A stretch of 64,000 bases of DNA from Rubrivivax benzoatilyticus JA2 = ATCC BAA-35 (GTDB lineage: Bacteria; Pseudomonadota; Gammaproteobacteria; Burkholderiales; Burkholderiaceae_C), in contig NZ_AEWG01000148.1 of the NCBI RefSeq assembly GCF_000190375.1, forward strand, positions 1-64,000, in the 5' to 3' direction. The notes beneath the pieces are model-generated. The model was not told the DNA's origin. It was given only the letters and a program-made list of their open reading frames with translations, and did no database searches. A program made the translations under genes and the position numbers. Position 1 is the stretch's first letter; each line of letters opens with the position of its first letter. Of the stretch, positions 13,329-31,513 are shown piece after piece.

Positions 13329-13330
13329 TC
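13306..13330 (+). repeat. attL core (3' end of ssrA)
   Basis: The T-arm-to-CCA end of tmRNA, TTCGATTC then CCCCGGTTCCACCATC. A degraded relative occurs at 31491-31513. Tyrosine integrases that target ssrA use this region, and an integrase gene starts 171 bases away. The exact crossover point cannot be read from one sequence. Confidence 0.6.
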
Positions 13331-13359
13331 TAAGGCTCCGCAAGGGGCCGCAAAGCAAG

Positions 13360-13395
13360 AAGGCGCTAAGTAAATCAACGACTTAGCGCCTTTTT
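13360..13395 (+). terminator. Terminator just inside the left end of the element
   Basis: A perfect 12-bp stem AAGGCGCTAAGT / ACTTAGCGCCTT with a nine-base loop, followed by TTTTT. It now terminates ssrA transcription 30 bases past the CCA and shields the element. If the element inserted at the ssrA end, this terminator came with it. Confidence 0.85.
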
Positions 13396-13439
13396 CATGT
13401 CCGCATGAGACCGGACGAGCCCGCTTGCAGCCGGGCATC

Positions 13440-13499
13440 GTGTGTGTAGCTTCTGGTGTAACTGGGCCCGGTGTGTGTAGCTCTCCGGTAGAGTTACAC
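13440..13499 (+). repeat. Integrase arm-type repeats / int promoter region
   Basis: TGTGTGTAGCT occurs twice (13441-13451 and 13471-13481, 30 bases apart), and GTGTAACT (13456-13463) faces AGTTACAC (13492-13499). The first block resembles 31435-31458 near the right end. Repeated short sites at both ends in the same orientation are what integrase arm-binding or Xis/AlpA sites look like. They also overlap where the int promoter must be, which allows autoregulation. Confidence 0.45.
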
Positions 13500-13501
13500 G
13501 C

Positions 13502-14806
13502 ATGGCTACCGATACCCTGACCGACAAGGCTATCCGCGCCGCGCTGAAGCGCGCGGCCGAGTCCGGCAAGCTCGAACGACTGCCCGACGGTGCGGGGCTG
13601 CGCCTCGACGCGCAACCCACCGGCGCCGGCTGGTGGAGGTTCCGCTACCGCTTCGGCGGCGCTCCGCGGATGCTGTCGCTCGGCGTCTACCCTGAGGTGC
13701 CTCTGGCGCTGGCTCGGCAGCGGCGCGACGAAGCGCGCGCGGTGCTGGCCGCCGGCCGCGATCCCAGCGCGCAGCGCAAGGCCGAGAAGGTCGAGCGCGC
13801 CGAGCTCGCAGCCGCGCATGCGCTGGAGGACGCCGGCTTGCCGCCGACCGGCAGCTTCGAGGCAGTCGCGCGCGAGTGGCTGGAGCTGGTCCATGCGGTG
13901 AAGTGCAGCGAAGGGCACGCCGAGCGAACCCGGATCCGGCTTGAGCAAGACGCCTTCCCCTGGATCGGTCGCCGGCCGATCGCAGAGATCGAGGCGCCCG
14001 AACTGCTGAAGACCCTGCGCCGTGTCGTCGATCGGGGCGCAGTCGAGACCGCGCACCGGCTGAAGGACGCCTGCGGGCAGGTGTTCCGTTACGGCATCGC
14101 GACCGGGGCATGCGGCCGCAACCCGGCGGCGGATCTCCGCGATGCGCTGCCGCCGGTGCTGACGCGCCACCATGCCGCTGTCATCGAGCCCGCGAAGGCC
14201 GGCGAGTTGCTGCGCGCGATGGCCGACTACCACGGGCACCCCATCACCCGCGCGGCGCTGGCGCTGTCGGCGCTGCTGATGCTGCGGCCAGGCGAGCTGC
14301 GCCAGCTCGAATGGGCCTGGGTCGACTTCGACGCGGCGACGCTGACCGTCCCGCCCGCGCTGATGAAGCGGAAGAAGGCCGACAAGATGAGCGGGGCGCC
14401 GCACGTCGTCCCGCTGGCGCCCCAGGCGCTGGCGGTCTTCCGCGGGTTGCATCCCCTGACCGGCGCCGGCCGCTACTGCTTCCCGAGTCTGCAGACGAAG
14501 GATCGGCCGATGAGTGAGAACACGGTGAACGTGGCACTTCGCCGGCTCGGCTTCGACCGCGAGACGGCGACCGCGCACGGCTTCCGGGCGATGGCTCGAA
14601 CGATGGCCGTGGAGCGGCTGGGCGTGGCGCCGGAAGTCGTGGAGGCACAACTGGCGCACGCGGTCGCCGGCCCCCTCGGGCGTGCCTATGACCGGACGCA
14701 GTTCGTCGACCAGCGGCGCGAGCTGATGGTTCGATGGGCCGACTACCTGGACCGCCTGCGCGACGGGGCGCAGGTGATCACGCTGCCGGCTCGCTCCACA
14801 GGATGA
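13502..14806 (+). CDS. int: P4-type tyrosine integrase
   Basis: A 434-residue site-specific recombinase. The N-terminal DUF4102 arm-binding domain (about residues 5-95) has the family's LPDGAGLRLD start. A SAM-like core-binding domain lies at about 115-210 and the catalytic domain follows. The catalytic set is complete: Arg262 (LRPGELR), His359 and Arg362 (HGFR), His386 and Tyr396 (AYDR). It reads inward from ssrA with the att site immediately upstream, so it is the enzyme that integrated the element. The ATG at 13502 has only a weak Shine-Dalgarno. Confidence 0.95.
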   Translation: MATDTLTDKAIRAALKRAAESGKLERLPDGAGLRLDAQPTGAGWWRFRYRFGGAPRMLSLGVYPEVPLALARQRRDEARAVLAAGRDPSAQRKAEKVERAELAAAHALEDAGLPPTGSFEAVAREWLELVHAVKCSEGHAERTRIRLEQDAFPWIGRRPIAEIEAPELLKTLRRVVDRGAVETAHRLKDACGQVFRYGIATGACGRNPAADLRDALPPVLTRHHAAVIEPAKAGELLRAMADYHGHPITRAALALSALLMLRPGELRQLEWAWVDFDAATLTVPPALMKRKKADKMSGAPHVVPLAPQALAVFRGLHPLTGAGRYCFPSLQTKDRPMSENTVNVALRRLGFDRETATAHGFRAMARTMAVERLGVAPEVVEAQLAHAVAGPLGRAYDRTQFVDQRRELMVRWADYLDRLRDGAQVITLPARSTG

Positions 14807-14929
14807 CGAACCGCGCCAGCCGGGAACGCTGGCACCGGCACCCCTGCCGAACCGCGCAATGCGAGCCTGCCGTTCGGGTTTGGCGATGCGCACTGGGCGG
14901 CTGCCGGTGCCAGTCTTGAGGATGAAGAG

Positions 14930-15799
14930 ATGGACGACTTGGACGAAGCGCTGCAGTGGTCGCGCCGACGTATTCAGGACGCACTGGACGCGTCAGACCC
15001 TAGCGGCAAGCCCTGGGGCCTGCAGCAGGCGAAGTGGGGGGCAGACTCGTGGAAAGGGACAGGGCGCCTGGAGCTGTGGCAGGCGGTTGCCCTTAGCCTT
15101 GGCTTCATGCCGTTCACCCGCGTTGTCGCGTCTGCGTTGGTGAACAAAGTCGAAGATCCGCGCTGGATCAACGAGCCCGACTGGTTTCCCCGCCTTCGCA
15201 CGCTTCGACAGCTGGTCGAGTTCAGTGATCGCTTGAACATCGCGAGCCGATTCTTCCTGTCGGAAACGCCGCGGGACGGCGCTCTATTGGCCGTCGGCAC
15301 GATCGCCGAGGAGCGTTGGCGTACCTCGGTAGTACTGCGAGACTTTGCGCGGTGGGCGGCGTCGCAGGGGTGGACGATTCCCCATGGACTGAAGGAACTC
15401 GCTGATACGGCGGCGCCGGTGGAGGGCCGCTTCCAGAAAGGCGATCCGGCGAACGATCCTCAGGCGGCGACCAGTTGCCCACCCTCGGTGACTGTGGCGC
15501 CATGCGAGGCGATCGAGACGGAAGAGCAGCGGGTACCCACGTCTGTGACGAGGCACAAGATAAAGCGCCGAGCCGCCCCGCTGGACCCCGCGTTCGAGAA
15601 GGCGCGGGCCAAAGCCGGACCGGGCGCCGCCTGGTCGGTGGTTTGGGATGAACTGGTGAAGGACGCGCAGTCGGAGAGCCCAACGCCCCCCCTGGCCGAC
15701 GTAAAGGACGGGGTGGTCTTTTACGGCGTGGACCCGGCGCGAAAGCTGACGCGCGAGGCGTTTCGCAAGCGTATGGGACGGACGGCGCCCGGCCCGTAG
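14930..15799 (+). CDS. Hypothetical protein next to integrase
   Basis: A 289-residue soluble protein with no domain I recognise. The N-terminal half is Trp-rich (residues 28-55 include KPWGLQQAKWG and a LWQAVAL segment). The middle is low-complexity (about 165-215) and the C-terminus is basic (EAFRKRMGR). Residues 45-150 have spacing reminiscent of uncharacterised proteins found beside integrases in beta-proteobacterial islands, which is an impression only. The ATG at 14930 has a purine-rich GAGGATGAAGAG upstream. The coding frame is clean, with strong third-position GC. Confidence 0.75.
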   Translation: MDDLDEALQWSRRRIQDALDASDPSGKPWGLQQAKWGADSWKGTGRLELWQAVALSLGFMPFTRVVASALVNKVEDPRWINEPDWFPRLRTLRQLVEFSDRLNIASRFFLSETPRDGALLAVGTIAEERWRTSVVLRDFARWAASQGWTIPHGLKELADTAAPVEGRFQKGDPANDPQAATSCPPSVTVAPCEAIETEEQRVPTSVTRHKIKRRAAPLDPAFEKARAKAGPGAAWSVVWDELVKDAQSESPTPPLADVKDGVVFYGVDPARKLTREAFRKRMGRTAPGP

Positions 15800-15888
15800 C
15801 CGGACGAGTTCGGACGCCCGAGGACGCCCGAGGATGCCGCCGGACAGATGACTTCGCGTCGCGCCGCCCCGCCGGTCCACTGGCCGGC

Positions 15889-16260
15889 ATGACGCAACCG
15901 CACCATATCGGGCCACAAACGACCGGGAGCGCCCGCCCGACTCTTCCGACTCACTCTGCGCACGCGCTGGACGCGGTGCCCGCCCCGCTGGTCGACGTGG
16001 CGCTGATCGATGCCAAGGGGATCGTCGCCGCTGCCTGCGTGAGCGTGTCCACCTGGCATGAGCTGGTCCGCACCGGCAAGGCGCCGCAGCCGGTCATGCG
16101 CGCGCCGCGCTGTACTCGTTGGCGTGTGGCCGACATCCGCGACTGGCTGTTGGCGCGCTCCGTTGACGCGAGCGCCGCCGAGAAGGTCGATCGCGCTGCT
16201 CGAGCTGGCGCCGAGGGGGCCCGCCGCCGTCGTCAGCAGGCAGCACCGTCCACGTCGTGA
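15889..16260 (+). CDS. AlpA-like DNA-binding regulator
   Basis: A 123-residue protein with a central winged helix-turn-helix of the AlpA/MerR-like excisionase type. IVAAACVSVSTWHELVRTGK leads into RCTRWRVADIRDWLLARS at about residues 45-90. The N-terminus is disordered and the tail is Arg/Ala-rich. In P4-like elements AlpA activates int or acts as the excision factor. Its place near int supports that role, but another AlpA-like gene (23055) and an Xis-like gene (28635) share the element, so the division of labour is unknown. Confidence 0.75.
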   Translation: MTQPHHIGPQTTGSARPTLPTHSAHALDAVPAPLVDVALIDAKGIVAAACVSVSTWHELVRTGKAPQPVMRAPRCTRWRVADIRDWLLARSVDASAAEKVDRAARAGAEGARRRRQQAAPSTS

Positions 16261-16271
16261 GGTGCGCCGCC

Positions 16272-16667
16272 ATGACGACGCACAAGGAAAAAGGCCCCCA
16301 GCGTGTCGAAGCGCTGGGGGCGAAGAGCCCCCCTTCCAAGGGCCCGAGGACACGAACGAACGAGGGGAATGGTGCAGGACCGCGGAGGGCAGTGCACACC
16401 CACCTTTCCGTCTCGCCCGGGCCGATTTCGTGGCTGAGTGAAGCTCGCCCACCGGCCACCAGCGCCCAGACGCTCGCCGAGCTGCAGGCGCTCGCCGCGC
16501 GAGCGGGCTGGAGGCTCACGAGCAGCAGCGCGCCGATTGGCCGGCGGCAGTTCGTCCTGAGTCGCTGGGGGCGCGCGATCGACTGCGCCGACCTCGACGA
16601 CGTGCGTGCCGCGCTGGCGCGCGTGGGGGTGCGCCGGGACCAGGGGAAAGCGGTGGCTCTAGCATGA
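16272..16667 (+). CDS. Hypothetical protein
   Basis: 131 residues from ATG 16272, which has GAGG nine bases upstream. A GTG at 16257 overlapping the previous stop (GTGA) is the alternative start. The first half is polar and probably disordered. Residues 55-125 contain a compact alpha/beta-looking stretch (WLSEARPPATSAQTLAELQA, then GWRLTSSSAPIGRRQFVLSR) similar in style to small phage accessory proteins. It overlaps the replication gene start by four bases, so it belongs to the replication operon. Function unknown. Confidence 0.6.
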   Translation: MTTHKEKGPQRVEALGAKSPPSKGPRTRTNEGNGAGPRRAVHTHLSVSPGPISWLSEARPPATSAQTLAELQALAARAGWRLTSSSAPIGRRQFVLSRWGRAIDCADLDDVRAALARVGVRRDQGKAVALA

Positions 16668-17572
16668 GGCGCCCGAGCTTCCAGTTCTACCCGGCTGACT
16701 GGATCGCGAATCCGAATCTCCAGCGGTGCTCGTTCGCCGAGCGTGGTGTTTGGCTCGCGGTGCTGTGCCTCATGCACGACCAGGAACCTTACGGCATCTT
16801 GCGCTGGCCGCTGAAGGACATCGCACAGGCCGTCAGGTGTCGAGCTGCGGACCTGCGGGAGCTGGCCCGCAAGGGCGTGCTCAAGGGTTCCGAGGACTTC
16901 CTCGCCGAGCCCTACGTCTACGTGCCCAGGAGCGGCCGAAAGGACGGCCCGCCGGTCGTCCTGATCGAGGCCCAGCCTGGTCCCATCTGGTACAGCAGCC
17001 GCATGGTTAAGGACGAGTACGTGCGCGCCGTCCGCGGCGAAGGCGGCGGCAACGGCGCCGCACTGAAGGCGACACCGAAGGGCGCACCCAAGCCCCCCTT
17101 TGGTGAGGGCTTGGATGAGCACCCACCTCGCGCGCGGGCGCCACGCGCAGGCCCGTCTTCTTCATCTTCTTCTTCAGGTATCCCCCCTGTAGCCCCCCAG
17201 GGGGGCGCCGCCCCCGAGCCGGACTCCGAGACCAAAGCCGGCCCGAAGGCGCCGAAGGTTACTCTCAGGTCATGGCTCGAAGCTGTGCGAGCCCGGGGCG
17301 AACCGGCGATTCCCGAAGACGACCCCGTGCAGGATTGGGCGGAGAAAGTCGGGCTGCCGAGCGAGTTCGTCGAGCTTGGCTGGCGAGCGTTCAAGAGGCT
17401 CTACCTAGAGGATCGGTCGACCAAGCGATACACCGACTGGCGGGTCACTTTCCGCCTCGCGCTGCGGGGGAACTGGCTGAAGCTGTGGTGGCTTGACGGC
17501 CACGAGTACCGACTCACTACGGTCGGCGAGCAGGTCAAACGCGAGTTCGAGTGCGAAGGAGCCGCCGCATGA
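16664..17572 (+). CDS. DUF1376 (YdaU-like) phage replication protein
   Basis: A 302-residue protein whose N-terminus (FQFYPADWIA, residues 6-15) matches DUF1376 of YdaU-type replication proteins, a winged-helix domain of about 100 residues. A linker (120-190) with a serine run and a helical C-terminal domain (195-300) follow. Such proteins take the place of lambda O or a helicase loader and usually precede a DnaB or DnaC gene. Here DnaB follows directly with an ATGA overlap. Origin sequences may lie inside this gene, as in lambda, but I see no clear iterons. Confidence 0.8.
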   Translation: MRRPSFQFYPADWIANPNLQRCSFAERGVWLAVLCLMHDQEPYGILRWPLKDIAQAVRCRAADLRELARKGVLKGSEDFLAEPYVYVPRSGRKDGPPVVLIEAQPGPIWYSSRMVKDEYVRAVRGEGGGNGAALKATPKGAPKPPFGEGLDEHPPRARAPRAGPSSSSSSSGIPPVAPQGGAAPEPDSETKAGPKAPKVTLRSWLEAVRARGEPAIPEDDPVQDWAEKVGLPSEFVELGWRAFKRLYLEDRSTKRYTDWRVTFRLALRGNWLKLWWLDGHEYRLTTVGEQVKREFECEGAAA

Positions 17573-18966
17573 GGCCGGACGACGTCGACGTCTCAGAACC
17601 CCGGTCGGCCTTCGTGCCGCCGCACTCGGACGAGGCGGAACAGAGCGTTCTCGCTGCGGTGCTGGTCGAACCTGCGTGCTTCGACAGCGTCGCCGGCCTG
17701 CTGCGGCCCGAGAGCTTCTACTCCGGGCGCCACGCGGCGATCTGGTCTGCCATGACCGCGCTGCGGGCCGAGGGTGCCGGCCTCGACGCGGTCTCGCTCG
17801 TTGAGGCGCTTCGGGCGCGAGGAACGCTCGTCTTCGCTGGCGACCGCGAGTACATCGCCGCGCTGTCCGTCGCAGTGCCTTCGGCATCCCATGCCCGGCG
17901 GCACGCTGAGATCGTTGCAGCCAAGGCGGCGCAGCGCGAACTGATCGCCGCGGCCGGCGAGGCTCTCGACATCGCGCGGGAGCCGTCCAGCGACCTCGGA
18001 GAGAAGCTCGACCGTATCGGCGCCCGCCTGGCGGCCGTGCAGCGCACGCAGATGCGTCGGGCGCCGATTCGGCTCGCGGAGGCGGTGCAGCGAGTCCTCG
18101 ACCAGTGCGACGCGATGCAGCGCGGCGAAGGCGAAGAAGTCGGCTGGGCCACCGGTATCGGCCCGCTGGACGACGCACTGGCAGGAGGGTTGCGCCCCGG
18201 GGAGCTGTACGGCATCGCCGCGCGCCCAGGCATCGGCAAGTCAAGTGTCGCGCGGACCATCGCATACCGAATCGCTCGGGCGGGCACGCCGACGCTGGTG
18301 CTGAGCATGGAGATGCCGATTCGGCAGGTGGCAGGCGCGCTGATCGCGCAGTTCGGGCGCGTCGACTCGATGCGGATCCGAAGCGCCAGGCTCGAGTCCG
18401 AGGACTGGAACCGAATGCTGGACTTCGCCGAGGTGTCGCAGGACGCGCCCTTGTGGATCGACGACGAGCCCGGCCTGACCCTGGCCGCGATCGCAGGCAA
18501 GGCGCGGCACGTGAAGGGGCTCAAGGTGCTGGTCGTCGACTACCTGCAGTTGGCCGCCAGCACCCTGAAGGGCGCGACGACGAACGATCAGGTGGCCGAA
18601 CTCAGCAAGGGCCTGAAGCGGATAGCGATGGAGCTGGGCATTGCCGTCGTCGTGCTCAGCCAGTTGAACCGGCAGGTCGAGCAGCGGGGCGACAAGGAGC
18701 CCGTCATGGCGGACCTTCGCGACTCCGGTGCCATCGAGCAGGATCTGGACGTCGCCGTGCTGCTGTGGGAGGTCGTGAAGACAGCCGACGCGCAGAACCG
18801 TCCGATCGGCTGGAAGGTCGACAAGAACCGCCACGGGCCCAAGCCGCGCTGGCTGACCTATTTCGACGGCGCCCGCTACGAGTTTCAGCATGCGGCGGAG
18901 ACCATCGAGCAGGTCCGTGCCCGCTGCGCCCTGCCGGCGGCAGGCACGCGAAGGAGGTACGACTGA
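17569..18966 (+). CDS. dnaB: Replicative DNA helicase DnaB (phage-encoded)
   Basis: A 465-residue hexameric helicase. The N-terminal primase-interaction domain (about 20-120) begins HSDEAEQSVLAAVL. The RecA-like core has Walker A ARPGIGKSS (218-226), Walker B VLVVDYLQL (Asp324), and the H4 segment MADLRDSGAIEQDLD. The length fits DnaB. The ATG at 17569 overlaps the DUF1376 stop, so the pair is translationally coupled. A self-encoded helicase lets the element replicate independently of host DnaB regulation. It clearly differs from a host dnaB by location and neighbours. Confidence 0.95.
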   Translation: MRPDDVDVSEPRSAFVPPHSDEAEQSVLAAVLVEPACFDSVAGLLRPESFYSGRHAAIWSAMTALRAEGAGLDAVSLVEALRARGTLVFAGDREYIAALSVAVPSASHARRHAEIVAAKAAQRELIAAAGEALDIAREPSSDLGEKLDRIGARLAAVQRTQMRRAPIRLAEAVQRVLDQCDAMQRGEGEEVGWATGIGPLDDALAGGLRPGELYGIAARPGIGKSSVARTIAYRIARAGTPTLVLSMEMPIRQVAGALIAQFGRVDSMRIRSARLESEDWNRMLDFAEVSQDAPLWIDDEPGLTLAAIAGKARHVKGLKVLVVDYLQLAASTLKGATTNDQVAELSKGLKRIAMELGIAVVVLSQLNRQVEQRGDKEPVMADLRDSGAIEQDLDVAVLLWEVVKTADAQNRPIGWKVDKNRHGPKPRWLTYFDGARYEFQHAAETIEQVRARCALPAAGTRRRYD

Positions 18967-19100
18967 TGGCGGCTCTGCGCACGCGACGAGGGGGCCGGCG
19001 AGCCCGTCCACGATGGCGCCGCAGAACGTCAGAGCTTCGAGGTCGCGCCCGTCGTGCGGCGGACGCGTATGCGGAACCGGTCAGGGAGGAGACCAGATGA
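18966..19100 (+). CDS. Small Arg-rich peptide between dnaB and the XRE gene
   Basis: A 44-codon frame (MAALRTRRGGRRARPRWRRR...) that starts in a TGATG overlap with dnaB and ends in an ATGA overlap with the XRE gene. About a third of the residues are Arg, which in GC-rich DNA can arise by chance, so it may be only a coupling frame. The two tight overlaps are the argument for translation. No function can be assigned. Confidence 0.4.
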   Translation: MAALRTRRGGRRARPRWRRRTSELRGRARRAADAYAEPVREETR

Positions 19101-19930
19101 CGCCCATCGCTGTTGAGACCATGCAGCTGGACTTCGTGCAGAACCAGCCCACGCCGGCGGAGGCCGAGCTGGCGCCGCGGCCGCCGCATCGCAAGCGCCG
19201 CAGGGGCAAGACCGCCTACGACACGCCGACCGACGAGAAGCGCGCGTGGGGCCGCCGCCTGGCCGAGGCCCGCGAGGATGCCGGGCTGTCGCAGACCGAG
19301 GCCGCGCACCGTCTGGGGTACAGCCAGCAGGTGCAGCTCTCGCTGATGGAGTCGGGGCAGCGCATGCCTCCCTTGGACGTGCTCTTGGCGTGCACGCAGC
19401 TCTACGGCACCACGATGGATTTCCTGTGCGGGCTCGCGCCGGACTCCGACCGCGACCCGGCTCTCGGCATTCAACGGCAACTCGCTGCCGGGCTGTCGGC
19501 GGAGCTGCGCCGGGTCGTGGAAGCGATGTCGTCAGCGTCCGTCAACGTGGCGCGAGCGATAGGGCCCAACGCGGCGAGGCTGCGCCGGCTCGCGAGCCTC
19601 GTGCTTCAGGCGCAAGGCCAACTGGAACGCGTTCGGTCGGTTGCTCCCACCTTCGACGAGGAGGTTCGCGGCGGGTCGCTGCTGGTGCAGGCACTGAGAG
19701 AGGCCGCGGATGCAGCGAAGGCTGAGATGGCGGCTCTGGAGCGTCGCGAGCGCCAGGTGCGTCGGCGGGGCCTTGGCTCCGTGCTGGCTGCCGTCGGCGG
19801 CTTGAACCTCGACTGGTACCTGCACTGGCTGCCTCCAGAGCCTGGCAGCTTGGACGACGTCGGCGAAGAAGATGATGACGAAGAACCGAGCGTTGGAGAC
19901 GGCGCGGCTAGGCAGATGCCCGACGGCTGA
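19097..19930 (+). CDS. XRE-family helix-turn-helix regulator
   Basis: A 277-residue protein. The N-terminal 40 residues are basic (HRKRRRG). An XRE HTH spans about 48-105 (WGRRLAEAREDAGLSQTEAA, with the recognition helix near YSQQVQLSLMES). A helical, coiled-coil-like C-terminal half and an acidic tail (EEDDDEEP) follow. It lacks the Ser/Lys peptidase of LexA/CI repressors, so SOS self-cleavage is not expected. GGAGGAG precedes the ATG at 19097. It may regulate replication or the downstream terS module, where an inverted repeat at 20044-20081 is a candidate operator. Confidence 0.8.
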   Translation: MTPIAVETMQLDFVQNQPTPAEAELAPRPPHRKRRRGKTAYDTPTDEKRAWGRRLAEAREDAGLSQTEAAHRLGYSQQVQLSLMESGQRMPPLDVLLACTQLYGTTMDFLCGLAPDSDRDPALGIQRQLAAGLSAELRRVVEAMSSASVNVARAIGPNAARLRRLASLVLQAQGQLERVRSVAPTFDEEVRGGSLLVQALREAADAAKAEMAALERRERQVRRRGLGSVLAAVGGLNLDWYLHWLPPEPGSLDDVGEEDDDEEPSVGDGAARQMPDG

Positions 19931-19984
19931 GGCCGCGATAGTGGCGCGGCAGACACGCACCCCGGGACGCCGATTTCCTTCTGT

Positions 19985-20197
19985 ATGAGCGGCCCGTTTC
20001 GGCCTGCTCTAGGCGCGCGCTCACGCGCGCGACAGGTGCAGCAGGGGAAAGTTACGGCGGGCAGCCGCGTAAGTTTCTCCCGACGGAACCGGTCTCCTTC
20101 GACGTCAGGCGGAAAGGCCAAGGCGTGGGGCCGGCGTGAACAGGCGATGCTTCCGGACGACACGAACGCGGCGCCCGCCGCAGAGAGCAGTGAATGA
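19985..20197 (+). CDS. Possible small basic protein upstream of terS
   Basis: A 70-codon frame ending in an ATGA overlap with the small terminase gene. The sequence is Ser/Arg/Gly-rich and unstructured, with no family resemblance. It spans the inverted repeat at 20044-20081, so the region may be regulatory rather than coding. The overlap is the only positive evidence. Confidence 0.3.
   Translation: MSGPFRPALGARSRARQVQQGKVTAGSRVSFSRRNRSPSTSGGKAKAWGRREQAMLPDDTNAAPAAESSE
20044..20081. repeat. Inverted repeat upstream of terS
   Basis: GGGGAAAGTTACG (20044-20056) faces CGTAAGTTTCTCCC (20068-20081), an 11-base loop with one mismatch and one bulge. It lies between the XRE gene and terS. It could be an operator or an RNA hairpin; there is no T-run to call it a terminator. 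Confidence 0.45.
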
Positions 20198-23297: not shown

Positions 23298-23300
23298 GAC

Positions 23301-23576: not shown

Positions 23577-23809
23577 GCACGACGCAGGGCGGAACTCGCG
23601 GCGCGTCGCTTCGCGCCGTGTGGTGACGGCCAAGACCGCAAGTCCTTTGCGGCACAGCCGGGGCTGCGCCCCGCTGATCCTCCCGCGCGATGCATCCTGG
23701 GTCGACCCCTCTGGGGATGCCGCCCCGCATTCGCGCGTCCCCAGCGGTGCCCGCCTCAGGTGAGGATTTGGGGAGGATTTCCGCATCTCCGGGGACATCG
23801 ACGCCCGCG

Positions 23810-24175: not shown

Positions 24176-24223
24176 GGGCGACTGCAACGCTGGATGTCGC
24201 GCTGAAGCTGAGTCGGCTGGCCG

Positions 24224-26380
24224 TCAGTGATAGTGGGTTGTCGGCGACCCGATGCCGCCGCAGCAGATGTGCGCGATCGATCGATCCCGCACGTCCTGCG
24301 TCAGCGGGGCCTGGGCGACGACCGTCGTGGGCGCCGGCGCCGAGCTGCTGACACGCTCCGGAATCGGCTCCACCGTCGGCGCTGGCGGAACCGCCGCCAC
24401 GGCCGGCACACGCGGCACGGTCGGCGAGTAGGCCGTCGTCACCTGAACCGTGCTCCGGGCGACGGCGGGCGAAGCAACCGACGGCACGGCGGCCTGACGC
24501 AGCAACTCCTTCTCCGACATCGCCCGGTGGAGCTGACTGGCCCGCACCGCCGGGCTGCTGCTGCGGAAGTAGGCGTCGTTGAACTGGATCTTGCGATCCT
24601 GGATCGCGTCGGTGATCTGCGCGTCCGTCATGCTTGCGAGATCGCGCCCCTTCAGCGAGGCGGCGATGATCTTCGAGGCATCGCCTCGGAACTGCGTGGC
24701 GGTCGAGAACACCGCTTCGCGAACCGATGCGCCGCGGCCGGACAGGTCGAAGCCCGCAGCCTTCAGCTTCGCCATCTCCGGCTCGTAGTGCGTGGCGATC
24801 ATGAACCGCCGTTGTGCGTCGCCGAAGGCCTGTTCATCGCGCTCGACGACCTGACGGTACTTGGCGTTGAACTCGGGCGTTCCCGGCGTCAGCCCGGCGA
24901 ACTGCGCGCCGTACTCCGGAGCCCACCGAAGGAACTCGGCCATCGTCCCTGTGTTCGTCGCGAGCTGGTGCTTGCCGTAGCTGACACCGCCGCGGTCGCC
25001 TCTGCCGCTCGAGATAGTCCCGACACCGCGCCCACCGGACTCGAAGCGCTCGCTGACCCAGCCGAGCTGACCAGCCTTCTCGCCAACCATCTCGCCGGCT
25101 TTGCTGCCGAGGTAGGCCCCGAGGACACCGCCGACCAGGGTGCCAGGGCCAGGCGCGATCATCGTGCCGAACGCAGCGCCGGCAGAAGCTCCTCCGACGG
25201 CCCCCGTGAAGCCGCCGACGTTCTCGGCCCGCTTTCGCGCACGCTCGTCGTCGGTCAAGCCGGCGTCGTTCGCGATTCGGCGGTCCTCCGCCAGCGCCAG
25301 CGCAGCCGTGGCGATCGTGCCGATCAGCGGCAGCTTCCCGAGAAGCCCTCGCAATCCGCCGGGCTTGGACGTCGCAGCCTTCGCTGCTTCTGCGTCCCCG
25401 GCACTGGCCAGCGTCGGGCCGAGGAGCGGCAGCTTCGACAGTGCGGCACGGATCCCACCCAGCATGCCGCTGATCTTCGTCCCGATGCCGGCGACGGTTG
25501 CGATGACGGGTGCCACAGCCGCCGGCAGCAGCGACCCGATCGCCGAGAGCAGGCCGCCACTCTCCCCGCGCGCGGCGCCGGCGGCGTCCTTGACGTCCTT
25601 GAGCCCGCGCTGCATCGAGCGCGCGGTGGCGGCGTCGTCGCGCCTGGCGCCGCGGATCTCGCGCCAGAGCTTGCGCAGCCAGGGAACGCTGGGATCGTCG
25701 CGCTCGCGGCGGCGGCCGGCGAAGTAGCTGGCGGCGCGGCCCAGCGGCGCGACGACATCACGCACCTCGGCGGCGGCGCCCACGATCGGGTCGATGCGTT
25801 CGACGCCGGTGACGGCGGCGCCAGCGCCGGAGGTCAGGCCGCCGGCGAGCCGGCCGACCGTTGCGATGACGCCGGAGCCGTCCTTCTGGCCACCGCCGAA
25901 CCGTCCGCGGGCGTCGCGCGCCTGGTCGCGCCGCGCGTCGGCCTTGGCGTCCTTGCGCGCCGCCTCCGCGGTGCGTGCCATCTGCTCGGCGGAGCGCGCG
26001 ACCGCGCCAGCAGCGCGCGAGTCGGCAGCGCTGGACGTGTCCGCGCCTCGGCGCGGCGCGAATCTGCGGTCCTCTCCTCTTGCGAGGTTGCGGTAGCCCC
26101 AAGCTCGTTCCGAGCGCGGAACAGGCGTGGCGATCTTGCGTGGCGCCGTGGGTGAGTCAACCGACGGTGCGCGCGCGGCGCGGTCAGCCGAGCGCGACAC
26201 GGGCGCCACGGGCTGGCGGCTGGAGGTGCCATGCCCATCGGGGCGGCGCTGCAGGACGTCGAGGATCTTTCCGGTGTTGTCCCGGATGTCGCCGAGCAGT
26301 TCGCTGTCTTCCTCGGCGGTGGTGTCGATCGGGGTGCCAACGAGCAGGCCGGAGGCGTCCGACTTGATGCGGTCGTTCAT
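24224..26380 (-). CDS. Virion-like protein with glycine-zipper segments and a peptidoglycan-hydrolase-like domain
   Basis: 718 residues from ATG 26380, with GAAGGA seven bases upstream. Residues 1-230 are disordered and Arg/Ala-rich. Hydrophobic Gly/Ala-rich stretches at 275-320 and 389-435 look like membrane-inserting glycine zippers. Residues 440-650 hold the pattern FESGG-x-G-x-GTISSG then GGVSYGKHQLATNTGT, which occurs in phage-associated lysozyme-like and VgrG-related proteins. Such layouts are found in tape-measure or DNA-ejection proteins that cut the wall during infection. It is the only virion-type gene in the element and lies opposite to its neighbours. A bacteriocin-like effector role is an alternative. 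Confidence 0.6.
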   Translation of the reverse strand: MNDRIKSDASGLLVGTPIDTTAEEDSELLGDIRDNTGKILDVLQRRPDGHGTSSRQPVAPVSRSADRAARAPSVDSPTAPRKIATPVPRSERAWGYRNLARGEDRRFAPRRGADTSSAADSRAAGAVARSAEQMARTAEAARKDAKADARRDQARDARGRFGGGQKDGSGVIATVGRLAGGLTSGAGAAVTGVERIDPIVGAAAEVRDVVAPLGRAASYFAGRRRERDDPSVPWLRKLWREIRGARRDDAATARSMQRGLKDVKDAAGAARGESGGLLSAIGSLLPAAVAPVIATVAGIGTKISGMLGGIRAALSKLPLLGPTLASAGDAEAAKAATSKPGGLRGLLGKLPLIGTIATAALALAEDRRIANDAGLTDDERARKRAENVGGFTGAVGGASAGAAFGTMIAPGPGTLVGGVLGAYLGSKAGEMVGEKAGQLGWVSERFESGGRGVGTISSGRGDRGGVSYGKHQLATNTGTMAEFLRWAPEYGAQFAGLTPGTPEFNAKYRQVVERDEQAFGDAQRRFMIATHYEPEMAKLKAAGFDLSGRGASVREAVFSTATQFRGDASKIIAASLKGRDLASMTDAQITDAIQDRKIQFNDAYFRSSSPAVRASQLHRAMSEKELLRQAAVPSVASPAVARSTVQVTTAYSPTVPRVPAVAAVPPAPTVEPIPERVSSSAPAPTTVVAQAPLTQDVRDRSIAHICCGGIGSPTTHYH

Positions 26381-26724
26381 GTGATGTCCTTCGTGTACGA
26401 GGGGCGGCGCCGCGGCCCGCATCGGGGTGGGCGCGGTGCGCGCGTCGCATGTTCCGACCTGACACCTCGCCTGGTGGGGCCGCTTTCCGGCGCTGGCGGG
26501 GACGGATCACGACGGTCGGCTTTCTGGCTAGGTGGCCGCGCCAACTACGCGTGCCAGAAGGTGCCAGGGGTGGTGCCAGCACTCGAGCGTGAACTGAACC
26601 GCCCGGCACGCGCGGCGCGTTGGCGGCCGCAGCTGCGTCGGACCTCGGGCAGACGGTTGCTCGACTCGCGTTCGTTTCGCCAGCACCTCGGCTGACCGTT
26701 GGATGGCGGCCAGGTGTACGGCCG
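26381..26724. other. Gap without a supported gene
   Basis: 344 bases between the start of the large minus-strand gene and the stop of the DUF4224 gene. It should hold the promoter of the large gene. The one visible pattern is GTGCCAG three times (26551, 26561, 26573) at 10-12 base spacing, about one helical turn, which could be a small regulator site. Confidence 0.4.
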
Positions 26725-27195
26725 CTACCCGGATCGCGATGAGGCGCTGGGTGGGCGTGGCCCGCTGCCTTGTGCCTTCTGGGATGCCTTGCGGGCACGC
26801 TGCTCCGCCTTGCGGGCACTCTCTGCGGCTAGCTCTGCAGCCTTTCGAGCGCGATCGGCGGCAAGTTGCTCCAGTCGCAGGCGCCGCTTTTCCGCCCATC
26901 GCTGAAGCGCAAGCTCAGCCTCGACGTCTGCCGCGTCCGCCTCACGTTGCCTCGCCTCCTCGGCAGAGTTCGGGCTGCCCAAGTGCCCTCGACAGACCGC
27001 CTCGTAGTGGGCTCGCTCGAGGATGATGGCGCCGGTCGGAAGGCGTCGCGCCCTCCAGAACCCGTGCTTGTGCAACTCCTTGAGCTGCTTCGCCGGCTGA
27101 CGGAAGCCGGTCAAGGCGGCGATCTCCTCGGTCGACAGGATCACGCTCGGGAACACGGCATCACGGCCGGTTGAGCCCTGGCCTGCTTCGTTCAT
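26725..27195 (-). CDS. DUF4224 phage protein
   Basis: 156 residues from ATG 27195 behind a good GAGGAA. Residues 18-75 match DUF4224 (ILSTEEIAALTGFRQPAKQL, then KHGFWRARRLPTG and a YEAVCRG end), a small helix-turn-helix-like domain common in prophages near int genes. The second half is an Ala/Arg/Glu-rich helix, probably coiled coil (residues 90-145). It reads away from the immunity leader at 27293, making a divergent regulatory region. A transcriptional or recombination accessory role is plausible but unproven. Confidence 0.7.
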   Translation of the reverse strand: MNEAGQGSTGRDAVFPSVILSTEEIAALTGFRQPAKQLKELHKHGFWRARRLPTGAIILERAHYEAVCRGHLGSPNSAEEARQREADAADVEAELALQRWAEKRRLRLEQLAADRARKAAELAAESARKAEQRARKASQKAQGSGPRPPSASSRSG

Positions 27196-27292
27196 CGCTT
27201 TCCTCTGTGAGCTGCTCTGCAGAGCGCTGACCGCGCCCCGGCGCATGGTTCCCCGGCAGTCTACGCATTGGCCCAGCGCTCGCGGCGTCGCG

Positions 27293-27322
27293 TTGACAGC
27301 TTCGGCCTCCCTCTGGCAAAGT
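27293..27322 (+). promoter_or_regulatory. Promoter of the immunity leader
   Basis: A perfect -35 TTGACA (27293-27298) and a weak -10 (CAAAGT at 27317-27322, 18-base spacer). It lies upstream of several hairpins, a terminator and the antisense-RNA-like region. Position and strength fit a leader promoter of the phage P4/P1 immunity type. Confidence 0.4.
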
Positions 27323-27372
27323 GAACGCGCCTCGAAAGAGGTGGGGCGTGGAAACCCCAAGGAAAAGCGGAG

Positions 27373-27401
27373 GCCGCACCCGTCAGTCACGCGGCTTTTT
27401 T
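27373..27401 (+). terminator. Leader terminator/attenuator
   Basis: GCCGC (27373-27377) with GCGGC (27391-27395) followed by TTTTTT. Two hairpins precede it: CCTC-GAAA-GAGG (27330-27341) and TGGGG/CCCCA (27342-27359). In the P4-type immunity circuit early leader termination keeps the element silent, and this hairpin is placed where such a terminator would act. Confidence 0.6.
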
Positions 27402-27423
27402 GCGTCCGTGCCATTCATTTTTG

Positions 27424-27550
27424 GATGGCCGAGAGGGCGGTTGTCACGGGGCAACCCGTGGCGGGGGAGCGAACCTCCTCGAAATACAAAACCCAGCGAT
27501 GGGGAATACGCCCGCCTGGCTTTTCCCAGGTTTCCAACCTCTCGGCCATC
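27424..27550 (+). ncRNA. c4/CI-like phage immunity antisense RNA region
   Basis: A 13-base perfect complementarity, GATGGCCGAGAGG (27424-27436) and CCTCTCGGCCATC (27538-27550), encloses three hairpins: CACGGG-GCAA-CCCGTG (27445-27460), a small GGAG/CTCC hairpin near 27466-27478, and CCTGG/CCAGG (27514-27529). It lies upstream of antirepressor genes. That recalls phage P1/P7 c4 RNA, which pairs with the icd-ant message, and phage P4 CI RNA. Frames across it resemble the apparent Icd/Ash-like products reported at such loci. The family assignment is from memory of these systems, not a search. Confidence 0.55.
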
Positions 27551-27613
27551 TTGCCGTGCGCGCGTGGAAACGCTCCGGCAAGACGTTCTCAACGTCTCGA
27601 AAAGGAGCGTTCC

Positions 27614-28204
27614 ATGCTCGACCGTCACACCCAGGCGCGCGCCGCCGCAATTTCCGCCACCGAACAGTCCGCCGAGCGCGAGCTCAAGGTCTACATCCAG
27701 CCCCATGGCCTCAACTACTGGGAGATCGAGGGCAGCCGAGCACAACTCGAAGCCGAAGGAATCGAGTTCCCTGCGGGCGTGACGTGGCCCGAAGGGGCCG
27801 GTCAATACTACTGGCGGTCCGGTAGTTTCCGCTTCCGCCTGACCCGCGCGCTCCCCGACGGCCTTAAGGGCCCCCGCAGGAACTACCCTGACCTCGACTG
27901 GTGGTGCGTGCGCTGCGACTACAACGACAGGCTCGACCCCGACCAACACGCCATCCTCCTGAAGAAGCGCGAACTCGCTGAAGCGATCCGCCTCGCGTCG
28001 CCCGATGGCCAGCGCGAAGCCGACCGCGCCTGGAAGGCGGCCCGAGACGTGGCGTTCCAGGAGTTCAAGGGCCGTATACCCGGGCTGGTGCGGCCGAAGC
28101 GAGGTCGAACGTCCCGCGTGGCCAGCGATCGGGGGCGCGCCGAAGGAAACGGGATCCCCGATCCCACCTCCGAGACGAGCGAGCCGACTGGAGGCGGGGA
28201 GTAA
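27614..28204 (+). CDS. Hypothetical protein downstream of the immunity leader
   Basis: 196 residues from ATG 27614 behind AAAGGAG, the first good Shine-Dalgarno after the antisense leader. The frame is open back to 27245 through the leader, but that part is RNA structure. The protein has a Trp/Tyr-rich core (VYIQPHGLNYWEIEGSRAQL, ITWPEG-like and WWCVRCDYNDR) and a basic tail. No domain is recognised. By position it is the gene most directly under the leader's control, comparable to icd in the P1 operon, but there is no sequence evidence for an Icd function. Confidence 0.6.
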   Translation: MLDRHTQARAAAISATEQSAERELKVYIQPHGLNYWEIEGSRAQLEAEGIEFPAGVTWPEGAGQYYWRSGSFRFRLTRALPDGLKGPRRNYPDLDWWCVRCDYNDRLDPDQHAILLKKRELAEAIRLASPDGQREADRAWKAARDVAFQEFKGRIPGLVRPKRGRTSRVASDRGRAEGNGIPDPTSETSEPTGGGE

Positions 28205-28459
28205 AGACCTCGGGCATTGCGGCCCTGGATGTCACCAGGCGCGCGATCGGTCCCTTCGTCGTCGCTGGCGCGGGAACTTTGGCGCTTCACGGCCGGAGCT
28301 GAGGCGCTGAACACCCAACATGGCGCGATGACGGCCGAGCTGCCGTCATCGCCACCTGGCTGGAAGCCGAGGCGTCCGGCGGGCGCCAGGTCGGCAAGAC
28401 ATCGTCGCAGTTTTGCGTTGATCTCCCCGACGTCTACGGTCGGACGCAGCCGGCATTCG

Positions 28460-28622
28460 CACTCCCGAAGCCCGCGCGCTGCATGCGTTCCTGGAGGTCG
28501 GGAAGGACTTCTCCAACTGGGTCAAGGATCGGATCGCGCAGTACGCTTTTCCGAGGGGCAGGACTACGTGGTGCACCTTTTCGCCAGTTACGGCGAAAAG
28601 GGTCAGGGCCGCCCGACCAAGC
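28460..28622 (+). pseudogene. AntA antirepressor remnant with a frameshift
   Basis: From about 28466 the DNA encodes ALHAFLEVGKDFSNWVKDRI in one frame, then SEGQDYVVHLFASYGEKGQG in the next. One T is missing near 28546-28552. The rest of the AntA domain (the LTLDTAKELAM part) is absent, and the remnant runs into the convergent Xis-like gene. The sequence is closely related to the intact copies at 21200 and 30018. Confidence 0.75.
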
Positions 28623-28634
28623 AATCCGCCAGCT

Positions 28635-28883
28635 TCAGCGCCTCTTCTCGGTCTCGACCCACCGAGCGTAGCCGGCGATGCTGATCAGCACCGAGCCGTC
28701 TGGCGCCTTTCGGTACTCCTTCCCGACGCGCCAGACGCCTTCGTCGATCTTCCGGCGGATCGCCTTCTCGGTGTAGCCAGTGATGTGCGCGGCCAGCGGG
28801 ATCCGGACGTAGGGCGCAGGTGCTACCAGCAGGTGATCGAGCGTCGGATCAGCAGAGCGGTCTCGGTGCGGCAACGTCAACAT
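28635..28883 (-). CDS. xis: Excisionase-like protein
   Basis: An 82-residue protein whose residues 25-80 read YVRIPLAAHITGYTEKAIRR, then KIDEGVWRVGKEYRKAPDG and SVLISIAGYARWVE. This is the layout of small phage excisionase-like proteins in which a MerR-type helix is followed by a GYxxWV helix. Such proteins bend att-site DNA and steer Int to excision. It reads leftward, against the antirepressor genes, and starts about 140 bases from the palindrome at 29023. No strong Shine-Dalgarno precedes the ATG. Confidence 0.7.
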   Translation of the reverse strand: MLTLPHRDRSADPTLDHLLVAPAPYVRIPLAAHITGYTEKAIRRKIDEGVWRVGKEYRKAPDGSVLISIAGYARWVETEKRR

Positions 28884-29253
28884 GTTGGGAGGTGCGGGGT
28901 TGGGCGTTGTGGTCAGACCGATGGGCGCAGCACCTCTCGGTCAACCGCCTTGGCTCAAGGCCGCCGCAGCCTTGAGCACGGTTCGCGTTCGAAGTCGGCG
29001 CGAGAACTCTAACGTATCTCATATACCGTATACGGTATGAATCGATCGGCAGGCGGGGCCCATCCATAGGGCAACGTCAAGCGACCGCGCGTCGCAACAC
29101 CGGCCCTGCCGAAGACCTACCGCGAAGCGCTGCAGGCGCTCGTGGCCGCGGAGACCGCGAAGGAAGCGCTGCAACTGCGCCTCGCCGAGCTGGCGGCTTC
29201 CGCCGTCCCCTCCACGCACCAGCGCCAGCCCGGCGCCACCGAAGGAGAACGCC
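28884..29253. other. Regulatory gap with an antirepressor remnant
   Basis: 370 bases between the divergent xis-like and KilA-N genes. It contains an AT-rich promoter-like stretch and a 16-bp palindrome (29023-29038). From about 29097 to 29261 there is an open stretch reading LPKTYREALQALVAAETAKE, which is the linker usual between the domains of phage antirepressors. It has no start of its own, and an in-frame TAG at 29067 cuts it from the ATG at 29037. It looks like the tail of a deleted antirepressor reused as the KilA-N leader. Confidence 0.5.
29023..29038. promoter_or_regulatory. 16-bp perfect palindrome, probable operator
   Basis: ATACCGTATACGGTAT, in an AT-rich island in otherwise GC-rich DNA, placed between the divergent xis-like and KilA-N genes and overlapping -10-like sequence. 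A two-fold symmetric site of this length fits a dimeric phage repressor such as an XRE protein. The ligand is unknown. Confidence 0.6.
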
Positions 29254-30003
29254 ATGCGTGACCTCGTCATCGCCGACACCGCCATCCGCACCGACTCGGC
29301 CGGCCGCTACTGCCTCAACGACCTCCACCGCGCTTCCGGCGCGGAGACGAAGCATCGCCCCAGCACCTGGCTGCAGAACCAGCAGACGCAGGCGCTGGTG
29401 TCCGAACTGGCCGCCGATGGGGCCTCACGGAATTCCGTGACCCCTCTCGCCACGGTCAACGACGGCCGCAACAACGGCACCTACGTCGCCAAGGAGCTGG
29501 TCTACGCCTACGCGATGTGGATCAGCCCGGCCTTCCATCTGAAGGTCATCCGCGCCTACGACGCGCTGGTCACGCAGCAGCCGCACCCCGGCGCGATCGA
29601 CATCCGCGACCCGAAGCAGCTCGCCATCGTCGCGCTGCAGCTCGTCGAGGTGAACCGCGACCTTCAGGCCAAGGTCGACACCATGCAGGTCGCCGTCGAC
29701 GCGCACCACCGCATCGCCAAGGCCAGCGCCGGCTCGCGCTGCGTGACCGACGCGGCGAAGGATCTGCAGGTGCGCCCGAAAGACCTCTTCTCCTGGCTGA
29801 GCGCGAACCGCTGGATCTACCGCCGCCCCGGCGGCTCGGGCTGGCTGGCGTATCAGGACCGCATCCAGGCCGGCCTGCTGGAGCACAAGGTCCACACGGT
29901 CGAGCGGCCGGACGGCACCGACAAGGTCGTCGAGAACCTCCTCGTGACGCCCAAGGGCCTGGCGAAGCTCGCCGTGGCCTTCAGAACCCCCAACGCCGCC
30001 TGA
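29254..30003 (+). CDS. KilA-N / KilAC phage antirepressor
   Basis: 249 residues from ATG 29254 behind GAAGGAGAA. Residues 1-105 are a KilA-N DNA-binding domain (YCLNDLHRASGAETKHRPST, then GTYVAKELVYAYAMWISPAF). Residues 110-135 are a helical linker, and 140-249 are the KilAC domain (VTDAAKDLQVRPKDLFSWLS, NRWIYRRPG..GWLAYQD). Both domains are intact, which makes this the best candidate for a working antirepressor in the element. It is followed 14 bases later by an AntA gene. Confidence 0.88.
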   Translation: MRDLVIADTAIRTDSAGRYCLNDLHRASGAETKHRPSTWLQNQQTQALVSELAADGASRNSVTPLATVNDGRNNGTYVAKELVYAYAMWISPAFHLKVIRAYDALVTQQPHPGAIDIRDPKQLAIVALQLVEVNRDLQAKVDTMQVAVDAHHRIAKASAGSRCVTDAAKDLQVRPKDLFSWLSANRWIYRRPGGSGWLAYQDRIQAGLLEHKVHTVERPDGTDKVVENLLVTPKGLAKLAVAFRTPNAA

Positions 30004-30017
30004 GAACGGAGACCACC

Positions 30018-31013
30018 ATGGCACAACAAGCGAAGATCCACGTCATCAACGAGCGCCAGCTCGCCGCACTGAACGTGCGCCTCATGCGCGGCTGGTGCGC
30101 GATGCCCGAAGGCCAGCGCGGCAAGTTCATCGAGCGGGCGAAGTCCGAGCTGGCCAGCCGGTTCAGCGTGCGCTACGTCGAGTCGATCCCGGCCGACCGC
30201 TTCGCCGGCGCGCTCGAAGCTGCCGAGCAGATCGTCGACGCGGCCATCGCCGAGCTGCACACGTCGGCGACGCCCTACCGCCGCCCGCACCGCCAGCTCC
30301 CGCTGGTCGACCCCGCCGCCACGGTGCCGGCCGCGGCCCGGTCCCAGCACGTCGCCAACGACGTCGAGCCCGGCCGCCAGCAGCTGATCCCGCTGGCCCA
30401 GCACGAGATCGCCGGCTCCACCGTGCAGACCGTCGACGCCCGCGCGCTGCATGCGTTCCTGGAGGTCGGGAAGGTGTTCGGCGCGTGGATCAAGGAGCGC
30501 ATCGACCAGTACGGGTTCTCCAACGAGGTCGACTACTTGATTTCCGAAACGGGAATCCAAGTTCCGCACCAAGGCGGAACCCGCCGCACGACACGCATCG
30601 ACTACCACCTGACCCTCGACACGGCGAAAGAGCTGGCCATGGTCGAGCGCAACGCGAAGGGCCGGGAGGCGCGGCGCTACTTCATCGAGTGCGAGAAGCG
30701 CCTGAAGGAGCACGAGGCCGGCGGCGGGCGCCAGGTCGCCGCGCTGCCGGACTTCAGCAACCCCGCCGCCGCGGCGCGCGCGTGGGCGGAACAGTTCGAG
30801 GAGCGCCAGCGCCTGGCGCTGGAGAACAAGGCCCAGGCCGAGGCGCTGGACGAGGCTGCGCCGAAGGTCGACTTCCATGACACCGTCGCCGACACCAGCA
30901 ACTGCGTGACGATCGAGGAGGCGGCGAGTGCCTCGAGAGCATGTCTACGGCCTGCAGCACGCACGCGCCGACGCTTGAAAAAGAAGAGAGGCACCCGGTG
31001 GTGCAGGGAATGA
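30018..31013 (+). CDS. AntA/AntB-domain antirepressor, copy 2
   Basis: 331 residues from ATG 30018 with GGAG upstream. The unusual N-terminal 110 residues (INERQLAALNVRLMRGWCAM, then SVRYVESIPADRFAGALEAA) form a separate helical domain absent from copy 1. The AntA/AntB domain spans 120-235 and a coiled coil follows (260-285). After FHDTVADTSN the beginning of a KilAC domain is visible (TIEEAA), and then the frame leaves it for a basic Arg/Lys tail, so the C-terminal domain is truncated or frameshifted near 30925. Two DNA blocks are almost identical to copy 1. Confidence 0.75.
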   Translation: MAQQAKIHVINERQLAALNVRLMRGWCAMPEGQRGKFIERAKSELASRFSVRYVESIPADRFAGALEAAEQIVDAAIAELHTSATPYRRPHRQLPLVDPAATVPAAARSQHVANDVEPGRQQLIPLAQHEIAGSTVQTVDARALHAFLEVGKVFGAWIKERIDQYGFSNEVDYLISETGIQVPHQGGTRRTTRIDYHLTLDTAKELAMVERNAKGREARRYFIECEKRLKEHEAGGGRQVAALPDFSNPAAAARAWAEQFEERQRLALENKAQAEALDEAAPKVDFHDTVADTSNCVTIEEAASASRACLRPAARTRRRLKKKRGTRWCRE

Positions 31014-31033
31014 GCCCGCGTCGGATGCCTCTC
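30984..31033 (-). terminator. Possible leftward terminator at the end of the antirepressor operon
   Basis: GAGAGGCA (30984-30991) and TGCCTCTC (31026-31033) form an 8-bp stem around a 34-base loop; on the minus strand the stem is followed by TTCTTTTTC. If real it would stop transcription coming from the right end of the element. The loop is long, so confidence is low. Confidence 0.35.
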
Positions 31034-31434
31034 CAGCCGCCAGCAAGCTGGACGACGTCAGTAGTCTCGCACAGGACGGCGGCGACCGCACCGTCTCGCG
31101 CATCACGAGCGTGAGGCATCGGGAAGTTCGGCACGCGGGTGGCGGTGAGTGCTGGCCTGACGTCGTCGGGCAGCACTCACGATGCACTAGCGCCCGGTGC
31201 GCGCCGCGCTGAAGCCTGAGTTGGCGCTGGAGAGCGGCGCGTCGGCGGTGTCGGCGCAATGGCTGGCGTTGATCTCCGGCCACGACGCTCCGAGCGCTTC
31301 GTGCTGCGCGGCGAATGCCCGGCCGACCCCGCGGGCGGTGCCGTGGCGATGCTGCTCTGCCCTGTGGCTGCGCTGCTGCCGAACGCCTGCAAGCCTGGCC
31401 GAGGATGCTCGGTGGCCAATGCACGCGGCACACC
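31014..31434. other. Right-end gap of the element without a supported gene
   Basis: 421 bases with no convincing frame. Visible structure: a perfect 10-bp inverted repeat GTGAGTGCTG / CAGCACTCAC (31145-31154 and 31171-31180). A minus-strand frame covers 31187-31537 (116 codons), but it crosses the right att region and shows no family features. It may be debris of deleted genes. Confidence 0.45.
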
Positions 31435-31458
31435 GTGTGTATAACTTTTGGTGTAACT
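31435..31458 (+). repeat. Right-end copy of the arm-type repeat
   Basis: GTGTGTATAACTTTTGGTG plus TAACT, matching 13442-13463 near the left end apart from a 2-base insertion and two substitutions, in the same orientation. It is the best conserved sequence shared by both ends of the element and so is probably bound by Int or a directionality factor. Confidence 0.5.
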
Positions 31459-31490
31459 CGTTGCAATTTTGAGACGGCTTCCCTCGTGAA

Positions 31491-31513
31491 TTCGAGTGAC
31501 CCCGGTCCCCATC
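31491..31513 (+). repeat. Degraded attR (displaced ssrA 3' end)
   Basis: TTCGAGTGACCCCGGTCCCC then ATC, against the ssrA end TTCGATTCCCCCCGGTTCCA then CCATC. It aligns with a few substitutions and two single-base deletions. The displaced copy is under no selection, so decay is expected. It is followed at once by a terminator that would suit ssrA. Confidence 0.5.

Follow-up and report, generated by a model that had tools for sequence, protein, structure and literature searches.

A candidate phage satellite with its own terminase small subunit and tape-measure genes in ssrA of Rubrivivax benzoatilyticus

The subject of this study is an 18.2 kb element, a candidate phage satellite, integrated in ssrA of Rubrivivax benzoatilyticus JA2 = ATCC BAA-35 (GCF_000190375.1, contig NZ_AEWG01000148.1, positions 1-64,000; this 64,000 nt stretch is referred to as the window, its numbering is used throughout and features are on the plus strand unless stated otherwise). 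The target of integration, ssrA (12955-13328), was recognised by tmRNA detection. The element spans approximately 13332-31513, boundaries that derive from the empty site of R. gelatinosus DSM 1709, in which the same ssrA neighbourhood (L067) is found without the element: bases 1-1444 of L067 correspond to window 11890-13333 and bases 1417-3784 to window 31491-33856, the two matches sharing 28 overlapping bases in L067. This agrees with a first-pass annotation made from the sequence alone, which had placed the element at 13329-31513 in ssrA. Comparison with the empty site shows a short common core, CCATC, at the left junction (13326-13332) and an imperfect copy of the ssrA end at the right one (31491-31513). 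A 25-base repeat close to the left end (13439-13463) has a similar counterpart close to the right end (31434-31458), and we infer the two to be arm sites of the tyrosine integrase encoded at 13502-14806 (Phage_int_M 2.3e-35, Arm-DNA-bind_3, Phage_integrase). This integrase, together with the reciprocal empty sites described below, suggests that the element relies on a recombinase of its own for integration and movement.

Scanning of 20 open reading frames (ORFs) of the element against Pfam and PHROGs identified the integrase, AlpA/Xis-type genes, DnaB, an XRE regulator, a terminase small subunit (TerS), two AntA antirepressors and a KilA-N regulator, along with several unknowns, so that the integration, excision, replication, packaging-recognition and antirepressor genes listed by the first-pass annotation are indeed present. 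The genes most relevant here are those for a presumed replication protein (16664-17572), a DnaB-like replicative helicase (17551-18966; phrog_19 5e-89), an XRE regulator common to P1-like phages (19097-19930) and a TerS of the Terminase_2 family (20194-21120), the latter two recognised also by phage comparison. The replication protein had been assigned to DUF1376, an assignment that could not be confirmed, the protein being without match in Pfam (E<=10) or PHROGs (E<=0.01). No dedicated primase was found among the scanned ORFs, DnaB being present. The window XRE, TerS and DnaB match those of Xanthomonas phage Rb1 at 27-33% identity.

A further member of this list is an ORF of 732 codons that lies alone on the minus strand (24224-26422, start probably at 26380). 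It encodes a VgrG3-like muramidase domain (PF21277 3.5e-59), which also matches 4noo and 4nso in the PDB, and has a match to a tape-measure PHROG (phrog_167 2.3e-9). Its relatives in the prophages G076 and G193 and in Rb1 sit in the tail module: in G076, a match to the P1 tube protein Tub lies just upstream (E 7e-5) and a match to P1 BplA just downstream (3e-16), and the same place is taken in P1 by sit, whose annotation reads putative injection transglycosylase and putative tail ruler. Because these relatives lie between tube and baseplate genes, the ORF is, judging by its homologues, a tail tape-measure protein (TMP) and injection muramidase of the P1/Rb1-like phage type. When seven such proteins are aligned, the motifs D..G.L.G at the N-terminus and QDV.DR.IAH...GG at the C-terminus are invariant in all seven while the middle varies. 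Deep relations among TMPs are drawn from these short conserved ends and a modular middle. The capsid protein of G076 shares 58.5% identity with its Rb1 counterpart and 23% with P1 gp23, and the G076/Rb1 phages are therefore grouped with P1. The idea that a shorter ruler makes a shorter satellite tail is not borne out, candidate satellite TMPs (664-897 residues) overlapping in length with phage TMPs (542-1008).

A sister element of 17.4 kb is found in DSM 1709, between a 14-base repeat and tRNA-Ser(GCT). Window blocks 19143-21156, 21609-23578, 23835-28107 and 28620-28826 are collinear in the sister at 79-92% identity, and block 30028-30374 is also common to both, but in another order. The two integrases are only 30% identical, and the replication region of the sister consists of a true DUF1376 gene (1.3e-29), a gene of no assigned function and then a PmgG-like head-morphogenesis gene (phrog_1114 7.3e-46). 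Because each genome holds the other's site empty (tRNA-Ser in the window genome, ssrA in DSM 1709), the two elements are, by this comparison, separate integrations of a shared core. The dN/dS ratio was 0.17-0.49 in eight of the nine shared genes (g13 0.17, TerS 0.24, TMP 0.28 and XRE 0.30) and 0.70 in g17. Both TerS and TMP have been preserved intact, and these values indicate that purifying selection acts on them.

The ORF scans of the window element returned nothing for TerL (terminase large subunit), capsid, portal, tube, sheath or baseplate, and a tblastn search with 62 proteins of phages Rb1, DC1 and P1 (E<=0.01; five of the 62 not structural, and a single endolysin as lysis query) found no match in either sister element to the TerL, capsid, portal, connector, tube, sheath, baseplate or endolysin proteins of that set. 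What it did match was TerS, the C-terminus of the TMP and a helix-turn-helix (HTH) protein in both elements, DnaB and KilA in the window only, and PmgG and DUF1376 in the sister only. The element has no complete virion gene set, and the TerL, major capsid, tube, sheath and baseplate genes of a complete P1-like prophage were not found in it. The only Terminase_2 match in the window genome is the TerS of the element. The statement in the first-pass annotation that structural genes are lacking is consequently right for large terminase, portal, capsid and tail tube, and for sheath and baseplate as well, but wrong in one respect, the TMP at 24224-26422 being structural.

Relatives of the element are rare. 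A close TerS is present in two of 81 genus genomes, two more having weak partial matches (66 and 47 bits), and a TerS match of any kind in 16 of 399 family genomes including this one, at 18 places. Twelve of the 17 places outside this genome were fetched: a DC1-type TerL was present at six of these 12 (at two of them with only 28-30% identity) and a TerL was recognised by profile in G076, while G413, G312, G417 and contig 21 of G323 gave no match to the TerL of DC1 or Rb1 (G193 was checked with the DC1 TerL only, and G444 and G304 were searched with window and DC1 proteins only). The TMP alignment found matches in 12/399 family and 10/399 order genomes, many by the muramidase or a glycine-rich stretch alone. 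Searches of IMG/VR with TerS, a two-row TMP alignment or XRE produced no confirmed relative, and the seven-row TMP alignment produced 30 loci. At least one of 16 P1-like structural or motor genes is present in 27 of these; the three others (L124, L129 and L144) have none, and TerS plus TMP without motor, capsid, tube or baseplate therefore recurs in 3/30 loci, which speaks for a satellite. The same 16 proteins (capsid, motor, tube and baseplate) have no match in the window element, in the sister or in a locus of G313 described below.

These three loci differ in completeness. L144, a contig of 14.2 kb, is complete: the final 30 bases of a tRNA-Pro recur at a distance of 13.9 kb with a single mismatch. 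It encodes an integrase, AlpA, a replication initiator, DnaB, XRE and TMP, and its TerS belongs to another family (phrog_309 1.2e-55); family scans of this locus covered the ORFs other than the small right-hand ones. L129 (14.2 kb), whose ends are contig ends, has an integrase, replication initiator, XRE, a tail protein (phrog_1722), PmgG, TMP and two TerS, and with phrog_1722 and PmgG carries virion genes beyond the 16-gene set. L124 (9.3 kb) has a replication gene, DnaB, PmgG, TMP and XRE, its contig ending within or just after TerS. The two TerS of L129 (11062-11751 and 12908-13726) are unrelated, one of each family, and might serve two kinds of helper. In phylogenetic trees, a clade uniting the window element with the sister and L124 is recovered for both XRE (15 rows; 100/100) and TMP (20 rows; 100/99). 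The latter tree started from 37 sources, from which 15 without a full TMP by the motif rule (including L129, with QDL at its C-terminus) and two identical rows were removed. L144 groups among phages in both trees, and L129 does so for XRE. These trees give no support to a single origin of all candidates; because L144 and L129 fall among phages, the TerS and TMP combination appears to have arisen, or to have been exchanged, more than once.

Other loci were encountered along the way. In G313 (L060, contig 66), a region beside tRNA-Met (1249-14250) encodes DUF1376, a replication gene, XRE, a phrog_1722-type tail protein and a frameshifted TMP; no TerS was found there, and the next 17 kb consist of genes of lower GC3 (GC content at third codon positions). 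In G413 (L042, contig 18), an element with integrase, HNH, DnaB, HTH and TerS genes lies beside tRNA-Arg (475-13904); two large ORFs of 513 and 747 aa, neither with a PHROG match, follow it into the contig end, and no TerL was found. No further satellite was seen in G604, G731 or G546, and megablast of the element found no plasmid and, among phages, only the KilA-N stretch in two records.

The reading that best accommodates these data, to which we give roughly a two-in-three chance, sees the element as a phage satellite whose helper would probably be a contractile-tailed phage of the P1/Rb1 kind. Upon entry of a helper, the XRE/antirepressor circuit would release the element, the AlpA/Xis-type proteins would aid its excision, and its own replication protein and DnaB would copy it. 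The TerS of the element would then steer the helper TerL to satellite DNA, while its TMP would take the place of the helper tape measure, giving chimeric tails on helper heads. Helper dependence, TerS redirection and TMP replacement are what we infer from gene content. A satellite had also been the proposal of the first-pass annotation, and it is favoured, neither of the two refuting outcomes named there having occurred: a conserved version of the same compact layout exists in a related genome, at another site and with other integrase and replication genes, and a complete prophage of which this element would be a unique deletion was not found in the genus, family and order searches made. It is altered in that a tape-measure gene is carried and in that the DUF1376 and c4 claims (the latter discussed below) are without support in the window copy.

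Several observations weigh against a satellite. Close relatives occur in only the two genus genomes mentioned, the candidates are not one clade in the XRE and TMP trees, and L124 and L129 may be incomplete. There are signs of decay, namely an AntA fragment and a g14 whose N-terminus differs here and which looks frameshifted in the sister, and a former P1-like prophage could have left TMP and TerS behind. In addition, a helper is not apparent: searches run without a positive control found an Rb1-type capsid in 0/81 genus genomes and a DC1-type TerL in 0/41 genomes, and the window genome has one weak TerL-profile match only, in a 1242-aa frame. Separately, contig 1 of DSM 1709 has a strong TerL (583963-585633; phrog_2 1.8e-81) outside the sister element, possibly marking a resident prophage or helper.

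Much of this would fit the main rival, a cut-down P1-like prophage that retains its early region, TerS included, and a single tail gene, the rest having been lost before the sisters split, and which moves only via a working integrase. The order replication-DnaB-XRE-TerS is like that of Rb1, and the AntA and g14 damage and the restriction to two hosts in the genus sample would be expected of such a relic. Against it stand the purifying selection that TerS and TMP have undergone since the sisters diverged, the separate integration of the sisters with different integrases and the recurrence of the same reduced set in L144 with an unrelated TerS, and we consider this explanation unlikely, at around a third of the weight given to a satellite. 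Less probable still is a satellite whose TMP acts against the helper, by tail-assembly interference or as a lysin, instead of being built into satellite virions. Tail-assembly inhibition systems are described for phage-inducible chromosomal islands (PICIs) and P4-like satellites in the portion of a report drawn on here (PMC11364771), and the gene does stand alone on its strand, but both tape-measure ends are invariant and the muramidase domain is kept, as for a protein assembled into tails. An integrative element that is not packaged but spreads otherwise, its phage genes serving an unrelated function, would explain the integrase, excisionase-like and replication genes, yet is very improbable, no conjugation or mobilisation family having turned up in the ORF scans and TerS and TMP being under purifying selection.

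The remaining features of the element are mostly regulatory or of no assigned function. Following the integrase are an ORF of no family (14930-15799; no match in Pfam, PHROGs or PADLOC) and an AlpA/Xis-like regulator (15889-16260; phrog_66 1.8e-6), whose AlpA label comes, in the window copy, from PHROGs only. A leader at 16249-16457 that contains a long GC hairpin is conserved in the sister (82.8% identity) even though the overlying ORF diverges. It had been described as c4/CI-like, a claim for which no support emerged: at E<=10 Rfam gave no C4 match, nor any other fitting family, the fold z-scores are weak (-0.37 and -1.47), and the c4 motif as we approximated it had no exact match in viral contigs. 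A c4 antisense RNA was rejected and the region is kept as a conserved leader only.

Downstream of TerS lie an ORF with an AntA antirepressor domain (21050-21976), g10 (21973-22623; with a weak relative in L124) and g11 (22636-23049), both conserved in the sister, a second AlpA-like gene (23055-23297; Pfam, PHROGs), g13 (23301-23576), the most conserved shared protein (91%), and g14 (23690-24175). Beyond the TMP are a DUF4224/excisionase-like gene (26725-27195, minus strand; Pfam, PHROGs), the fast-evolving g17 (27614-28204), fragments of a third AntA copy (28369-28573; repeat families D3, D5 and D16), an excisionase-like gene (28635-28883, minus strand; phrog_9668 1.8e-12), a KilA-N/KilAC antirepressor (29254-30003; Pfam) and an AntA antirepressor (30010-31013; Pfam) whose start is inferred within ORF 29517-31013. 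No function is assigned to g10, g11, g13, g14 or g17, and a PADLOC scan of 10 small proteins found no defence match. AntA-type copies are thus present at 21230-21657, 28466-28573 and 30336-30778, and stretches of 204 and 179 bases show 88-97% identity between two of them. The sister lacks the AntA part of the first antirepressor; further right it has in its place a Rha-type regulator (PF09669), the Rha-type domain standing between the same flanks, a pattern that suggests exchange of antirepressor domains. At its right end the sister (L005 7658-9374) has an extra nuclease-like gene (phrog_452) and two others; two of these extra genes scanned against PADLOC gave no match, and one may be SRAP-like.

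Among known systems, P1-like phages (P1, Rb1 and the G076 and G193 prophages) share homologous TMP, TerS, XRE and DnaB with the element, and PmgG with the sister, but the element is without detected terminase motor, capsid, tube, sheath or baseplate genes and has 18 kb versus the 91-95 kb of the Rb1 and P1 records. P4-like satellites have the P4 primase and capsid-size genes, none of which turned up in the PHROG scans of the 20 ORFs, no P4 query having been run. SaPIs (Staphylococcus aureus pathogenicity islands) use their own TerS, and a primase-replicase is typical of PICIs. Of the PICI-type traits, the element has integrase and AlpA together with a replication gene at one end, and it carries a packaging gene. 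PICIs of Gram-negative and Gram-positive bacteria, as described in parts of PMC11364771 and PMC11389934, likewise combine an integrase with an AlpA-type regulator, a replication module and a gene for packaging, and lack a full virion set. The element may differ from PICIs in its size (18.2 kb versus 10-15 kb; PMC11364771) and in having DnaB and no recognised primase-replicase, and it carries a TMP in addition. Some capsid-forming PICIs (cfPICIs) are reported with putative tmp genes (PMC12987554, in part); unlike these, the element has no detected capsid gene.

The closest functional parallel may be the PLEs (PICI-like elements) of Vibrio cholerae, satellites of phage ICP1 that also have their own tape-measure gene. 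The portion of a 2026 study used here (PMC12987554) presents PLEs as the first satellites known with chimeric tails: their virions contain the PLE-encoded TMP, the helper TMP being excluded, and tmp deletions lower transduction by 96 to about 99.9%. It also predicts tmp in other putative satellites. PLEs are so far the only satellites whose own TMP has been demonstrated in chimeric contractile tails. In the present element, the host is Rubrivivax, the closest phages are P1/Rb1-like and a phage-type TerS is carried. No tail chaperone (tac) or baseplate-hub gene was recognised in the element, no PLE protein having been used as query. In the open-access literature, judged by titles and abstract starts, no description of satellites of P1-like phages, or of the element itself, was found.

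A broader and more tentative proposal, to which we give somewhat less than even odds, is that satellites of P1-like phages captured the helper tmp at least twice, pairing it with a TerS of their own from one or other of two families, and that a TerS and TMP kit turns a large contractile-tailed helper into the carrier of a 14-18 kb satellite, in which case chimeric tails, far from being peculiar to Vibrio, would be a convergent rule among satellites. If the element is indeed such a satellite, it would be an unrelated test case for chimeric tails in another, non-pathogenic bacterium, with a sister at hand in the type strain R. gelatinosus DSM 1709. P1-like phages would have dedicated parasites, and TerS and TMP would be what a satellite keeps as its own when the rest is borrowed.

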